34,692 nucleotides of DNA from an uncultured Bacteroidota bacterium (GTDB lineage: Bacteria > Bacteroidota > Bacteroidia > Chitinophagales > Chitinophagaceae): contig CAIJNJ010000042.1 in assembly GCA_903821975.1 (NCBI GenBank), forward strand, positions 1 through 34,692. Reading direction: 5' to 3'. The notes below the pieces were generated by a model, which saw only the letters and a program-made list of their open reading frames with translations, searched no databases and had not been told where the DNA came from. The translations under genes were made by a program, and so were the position numbers. The stretch's first letter is position 1; each line of letters opens with the position of its first letter. Below are positions 27,202 to 27,964 of the stretch, in pieces.

Positions 27202-27317
27202 AGCTGCAATTTACGGGTAAATGTGAGAATATGAATGTTGGTAAATGGTATAGCAGGTAATAGTGCTCCTATGTAAAATAAATCGTAACTTTAAGGGTCA
27301 TTAATTTTGAGAAAAAA

Positions 27318-27680
27318 ATGATCATCACAACTGATACAAAAGGGAAAGCGTCGAAAATTGTTTCTGAAATATTCAAGGACAACGATGCAACATTATCTCT
27401 TAAATTTTCCAGATTGGAATCGGGCAACAACGTTTATCTTTTCAGGTATCCTGTTTTATTTCAAATATCACAGGAAGGAGATGGAACTATAATAGAAAAT
27501 GAGCAGTTAGATATTTTTGCGGCAGGCAAATCAATAGCTGAAGCCAAAAGCGAATTGTCATATCAATTTGACCATACTTATAAAAGGCTGAATGAATTGA
27601 AGGACGCGCAGTTAAGCCCCAAACTTCTATTGGCAAAAGAGTATTTTAATTTTATTATTAAAGCAGTAAGTAATAAATAA
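27318..27680 (+). CDS. Putative antitoxin-like partner of a HicA-like ORF
   Basis: 120 aa; FQISQEGDGTIIENEQLDIFAAGKSIAEAKSELSYQFDHTYKRLNELKDAQLSPKLLLAKEYFNFIIK has the 'ly-aGksieEAleeLkeei..lyeel' pattern of antitoxins near HicA-like genes; directly abuts the toxin-like ORF. Confidence 0.55.
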   Translation: MIITTDTKGKASKIVSEIFKDNDATLSLKFSRLESGNNVYLFRYPVLFQISQEGDGTIIENEQLDIFAAGKSIAEAKSELSYQFDHTYKRLNELKDAQLSPKLLLAKEYFNFIIKAVSNK

Positions 27681-27962
27681 ATATCATCTCTGCCTGCTAA
27701 AAAAGTAATTGCAAGTTTACTTAAAAAAGGTTTTATAGCAAGTGATAGCCACCATCATTATTTTGAGTTTTGGTACAACGGCCAGTTAGTTTCCAGAACT
27801 TATACCAGCCATAGCGGGGGCGATATTGATGACTACCTGATAAGCGCCATGAGAAAGCAATGTTGCATGGACAAAACGTTTTTTATAGACTTTGTGAAAT
27901 GTACCAAATCTGAGGAAGATTACATCAAGGTGCTAATAGATCAAAAGCTTATCATTTTATAG
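27681..27962 (+). CDS. HicA-like toxin-type protein with non-canonical start (ATA) or in-frame stop fusion; absent from the ORF track
   Basis: Translation from 27681: (I)SSLPAKKVIASLLKKGFIASDSHHHYFEFWYNGQLVSRTYTSHSGGDIDDYLISAMRKQCCMDKTFFIDFVKCTKSEEDYIKVLIDQKLIIL*. HicA-like layout: K..i..LlkkGF, H.yf, Sh..gdi.d.li..M.kQc.l.k..F.d.v.C..s.e.Y. Confidence 0.6.
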   Translation: MSSLPAKKVIASLLKKGFIASDSHHHYFEFWYNGQLVSRTYTSHSGGDIDDYLISAMRKQCCMDKTFFIDFVKCTKSEEDYIKVLIDQKLIIL

Positions 27963-27964
27963 GC

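Follow-up and report, generated by a model that had tools for sequence, protein, structure and literature searches.

The locus raises the question of what an ATA codon is doing at the head of an otherwise intact, toxin-like reading frame that begins directly behind the stop codon of another gene. The frame may belong to a toxin that has lost its start, to a toxin made from a weak start, or to a pair misread in the assembly, and the answer depends on what the encoded protein is and on how its relatives begin.

The two genes and their reading frames

The sequence is from an uncultured Chitinophagaceae bacterium (Bacteroidota), assembly GCA_903821975.1. Positions 1-34,692 of contig CAIJNJ010000042.1 were analyzed on the forward strand, and this whole stretch of 34,692 nucleotides is called the window. 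The genome comprises 570 contigs and is 82% complete with 3.6% contamination, figures that mark it as metagenome-assembled. Another genome of the family, G231, is Ilyomonas limi, as recognized by a protein with 100% identity. The ATA rests on one assembly, and the species is represented by one genome. The features are:

27202..27964, no strand: cassette-bearing interval between an acyl-carrier-protein phosphodiesterase gene and a FUSC-like gene; 41-222 bp without the cassette in ten genus mates
27318..27680, + strand: antitoxin-like upstream gene, 120 aa, intact, short form; the profile of its relatives matches at E 1.8e-46
27678..27680, + strand: TAA stop of the antitoxin gene, abutting the ATA (gap 0, same frame); the layout is TAA ATG in relatives L079, L005 and L007
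27681..27683, + strand: ATA codon at the site of the toxin ATG start in relatives
27681..27962, + strand: HicA-like toxin frame, 93 codons plus TAG, with no canonical start before codon 57
27690..27692, + strand: CTG, codon 4, in frame; candidate near-cognate start by sequence, whose product would be nearly full-length
27849..27851, + strand: ATG, codon 57, the first in-frame canonical start, within the second helix of the structure model

The initial annotation described a frame open for 93 codons after the TAA of the 120-aa ORF, with ATA as its first codon and its first in-frame ATG at 27849, that fits its family from the first residue. The sequence bears out the first two points and alignment with relatives the third. 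The product runs ISSLPAKK...LIIL and ends at a TAG at 27960-27962. When ATG, GTG and TTG are all considered, the earliest start is still the ATG at 27849, so the gene was rightly called hidden: a gene caller limited to these codons would miss the toxin. On the predicted structure, a product initiated at 27849 would lack too much of the domain to be a complete toxin. The in-frame CTG at 27690-27692 is a near-cognate start absent from the initial annotation. Judged by sequence comparison, the toxin frame is more than a chance open frame, as indicated by its family match from residue 1, its bias at codon position 3 and the invariant positions that it keeps.

A HicA-like protein and its partner

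The 93-aa product matches the Pfam family HicA_toxin (PF07927) at 16.7 bits (E 0.0079), below the cut-off of 27 bits, and is thus outside the family by Pfam's own rule. Its relatives score 18.7 bits or have no match. Comparison of profiles is more telling. The family profile, aligned with hhalign to a canonical HicA profile built from six HicA proteins of relatives, gives a probability of 97.9 and an E-value of 5.4e-13 over 71 columns. The structure model of the toxin (pLDDT 90.7) has the order alpha-beta-beta-beta-alpha followed by two further helices, and so contains the dsRBD-like fold by which HicA proteins are recognized. The best three matches of the model in the PDB are all HicA proteins, 6g26 (two chains) and 1whz, with probabilities of 0.95-0.98 and TM scores by target of 0.66-0.68; their E-values are only about 0.1, and the fold match was therefore weighed by ranking and probability. 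A histidine of predicted catalytic type, H25, in the first hairpin region is kept in the window and in most relatives. From these sequence and model comparisons we take the toxin to be a HicA-superfamily protein belonging to a subfamily without a name in the libraries searched. The HicA-like assignment, made initially by motif, thus stands on profile-profile and fold evidence and falls short of Pfam's curated cut-off. NCBIfam and PADLOC yielded no family, and when the family profile was searched against the sequences of solved structures, only weak, unrelated matches came back.

The cassette shares with type II HicAB systems a small alpha-beta-beta-beta-alpha protein with a conserved histidine in the hairpin region (HicA, PF07927), a two-gene organization, the profile and fold match, and a patchy distribution. 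It differs from them in several ways. In E. coli HicAB the toxin gene comes first (PMC5535158), whereas in the window it is second. The window toxin has two additional helices at its C terminus, with a C-P/T-x-S motif, and scores below the Pfam cut-off, its ATG is replaced by ATA, and its partner has no HicB match in Pfam. A literature search found no report of a toxicity or antitoxicity test for this HicA-like subfamily.

The partner, a putative antitoxin, varies in length among the relatives: some have a protein of about 100-150 aa, and many have one of about 310 aa. The 120-aa protein of the window is a short form without the N-terminal domain of about 190 aa present in many relatives, and this extra domain has no Pfam match above cut-off. 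Long partners of about 310 aa are found in L026, L038, L050, L061 and others; the short form occurs in the window, L003, L004, L007 and L037. The window partner matches no Pfam family, HicB and PF12910 included. Two of its relatives match the PHD_like antitoxin family PF12910 weakly (E 3e-4 and 0.014), both below the curated cut-off. When the shared C-terminal domain was modelled and compared with the PDB, the HicB structure 6g1c appeared at rank 50 with a probability of 0.20, and the putative antitoxin 3k6q had a probability of 0.51. On this model the domain is not clearly HicB.

The Bacteroidota -7 element has the form TAnnTTTG. The sequence TAATTTTG at 27302-27309 matches it only 9 bases 5' of the antitoxin ATG, so that the leader would be very short if this element is used. 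A sigma-70 promoter scan performed no better than on shuffled sequences.

Start codons, distribution and insertion site of the cassette

Relatives were sought at genus, family, order and class level and in a species-level genome collection. A contig scan with the window protein alone as query found nothing. In the relatives the toxin gene immediately follows a homologue of the window's upstream gene, and the pair occurs in Chitinophagaceae (Chitinophaga, Ilyomonas, Flavihumibacter), Cyclobacteriaceae, Bacteroidales, Aquimarina and other Bacteroidota. The initial annotation had proposed asking whether ATG occupies the position aligned with 27681. It does: the toxin start is ATG in 38/38 relatives (36 paired relatives plus L078 and L079), aligned to the window ATA or one codon away, and a non-canonical start is found in none of them (0/38). 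The spacing between antitoxin stop and toxin start is -1 in most (TAATG), with -4, 0 and other short values elsewhere, and the antitoxin stop may be TAA, TGA or TAG. In most relatives the two genes occupy different frames and overlap by TAATG or ATGA; L079, L005 and L007 have them in the same frame, with the ATG immediately 3' of the antitoxin stop.

The relative nearest to the window toxin is L079, with 61% identity over 85 aa; it is also its sister in the tree (support 96/83). Its junction reads ...GCA TAA ATG GCA... against ...AAA TAA ATA TCA... in the window, with equal frame and spacing. Because all 38 relatives have ATG at this site and the layout of L079 is identical, the ATA is read as a replaced ATG.

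Ten genus mates lack the cassette in this interval, and their acyl-carrier-protein phosphodiesterase and FUSC-like genes lie 41-222 bp apart; in the window the two genes are separated by 767 bases. The cassette has a GC content of 0.33-0.37 (~34%), and the flanks about 0.46-0.54 (~50%). In the tree the window toxin clusters with those of other genera, apart from the rest of its own genus, whose members are scattered. The short distance between the flanking genes in genus mates and the low GC of the cassette indicate that it was probably acquired horizontally, with loss in the genus mates as the alternative. The pair is adjacent and conserved, with a short overlap, a patchy spread and an insertion in an otherwise conserved neighbourhood; as far as sequence can tell, it is a two-gene toxin-antitoxin cassette.

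Relatives of the pair were absent from annotated phages, and the plasmid collection gave one remote match. The sole relative from a viral collection, L078, is on an IMG/VR contig classed as viral; the pair is present there and the toxin starts with ATG.

Explanations of the ATA codon

The explanation that we consider probable is that a horizontally acquired cassette lost its toxin start by a change from ATG to ATA, which abolished or strongly lowered toxin synthesis. In the relatives, where the toxin ATG is seen at the antitoxin stop or overlapping it, ribosomes that finish the antitoxin would restart on that ATG. In the lineage of the window this codon, by comparison with the relatives, became ATA, presumably in a single G-to-A step; slippage within the AATA repeats nearby would be a less simple route. 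The antitoxin would still be made, and the remaining toxin frame may have stayed intact either through lack of time since the loss or through continued translation of traces of product. Such a change would be an unremarkable evolutionary step in a familiar type of system, here in a HicA subfamily without a name. RNA folding across the junction gave no unusual structure (z 0.34), and no masking of the start by structure is therefore proposed.

The condition of the toxin frame bears on the age of such a change. The frame contains no stop or frameshift. Differences between the window and L079 toxins are concentrated at codon position 3 (0.63, vs 0.29 and 0.24 at the other positions). Of the positions invariant in four close relatives, the window toxin keeps 30/37, the same number as the apparently intact toxin of genome G568 under the identical test. 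In a neutral simulation, the probability that no stop arose and that all 30 positions were retained was 11% at 0.03 and 2.5% at 0.05 substitutions per site; a loss of the toxin, if complete, must therefore be recent. The non-synonymous distance on the window branch, from a three-taxon comparison, is about 0.21 for the toxin and about 0.30 for the antitoxin. Both genes show a long window branch, that of the toxin being no longer than that of the antitoxin. The toxin is thus not more relaxed than the antitoxin, and there is no positive sign of its decay; dN/dS is not estimable because dS is saturated. These comparisons suggest either a recent loss or continued synthesis of some product.

The second of these states leads to the alternative that termination-reinitiation on the AUA at 27681 or the CUG at 27690 still yields a low level of toxin, the weak start being a selected attenuator of dose. 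Coupled initiation at the ATA had been among the options of the initial annotation and is a possible reading. The antitoxin stop directly abuts the ATA, and the frame is undamaged. Reinitiation requires an overlap or a very short distance between stop and start, and the distance here is short enough (PMC10666635). Natural AUA starts exist in Staphylococcus aureus, in infC, ccpN and citZ; the ccpN and citZ AUA reporters give about 10-30% of AUG in that species (PMC13009471). The S. aureus genes, like the window toxin, have AUA at the start site of an otherwise intact gene, and the citZ AUA is likewise restricted to one strain lineage (PMC13009471). At the S. aureus sites, however, initiation has been measured and mostly accompanies an extended Shine-Dalgarno motif, on whose pairing at least infC, cvfC1 and ccpN rely (PMC13009471); the window site is known from sequence and has no such motif, and Bacteroidota are without Shine-Dalgarno pairing (PMC6847099). 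The near-cognate ATT yields about 0.3% of ATG in E. coli, a value cited in PMC10666635. The base at -3 of the ATA is T, vs the favoured A. An AUA start is also not a trait of the family, since every one of the relatives uses ATG. Low-level synthesis from AUA or CUG is on balance unlikely, and its stricter form, in which a selected AUA start, reached only by ribosomes restarting after the adjoining antitoxin stop, sets the dose in a phylum that does without Shine-Dalgarno pairing, is slightly less likely again. If true, it would be a genuine non-canonical start under selection that is invisible to gene callers.

It is more doubtful still that the ATA is a consensus, strain-mixture or sequencing error and that most cells carry ATG in an ordinary bicistronic pair. 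The fragmented genome and the functional appearance of everything except this one codon are compatible with an error. The rest of the cassette, however, shows no damage of the kind that indel errors leave, and a wrong single base is uncommon in the consensus of assembled contigs, which makes an error at exactly this base unlikely a priori. That the cassette is a relic in which neither gene functions and decay is still pending is very improbable. The long window branch of both genes and an antitoxin without the N-terminal domain of its close relatives L079 and L026 would fit a relic, but the antitoxin frame is conserved and open throughout, and short antitoxins also occur in the intact pairs L003, L004 and L007. 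Readthrough of the TAA to give an antitoxin-toxin fusion, which the initial annotation had entertained, is rejected as having next to no likelihood. The two genes do share one frame with a single stop between them, but TAA is the stop codon least prone to readthrough, the searches turned up no fused relative, and even the same-frame relatives have ATG straight after the stop. Since the frames mostly differ and a start lies at or near the stop in all relatives, readthrough is not the way of this family; the TAATG overlap and the variable stop codon argue against it as well.

Of the four options in the initial annotation, loss of the toxin start is consequently the best supported, by ATG in 38/38 relatives, by the TAA ATG of L079 and by broken or missing toxins elsewhere. 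In the window's subclade, the pair L037 (G662 C233, 1501-1773) has a TAG in place of a conserved TGG (W) codon of the toxin and an open antitoxin. In the window's genus, antitoxin homologues L076 (G011) and L077 (G019) have no toxin downstream. Disarming with the antitoxin retained thus appears to recur, in few cases that each come from one assembly. A further candidate for a broken toxin, L033, matched weakly and was left out of the count. The window cassette would represent a possible route by which an acquired toxin-antitoxin module is disarmed, with the antitoxin kept and the toxin frame still intact, and the relatives would represent other stages, a nonsense toxin and an antitoxin alone. 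The locus also exposes a HicA subfamily below Pfam cut-offs whose partner exists in short and ~310-aa forms, and it is a natural setting in which AUA reinitiation in Bacteroidota could be tested cleanly.

The junction between the genes is altered in Chitinophaga sp. YR627 (L044) by a tandem duplication of ~88 bp of the antitoxin 3' end, located between antitoxin and toxin; it is the duplicate, and not the first copy, that overlaps the toxin start.
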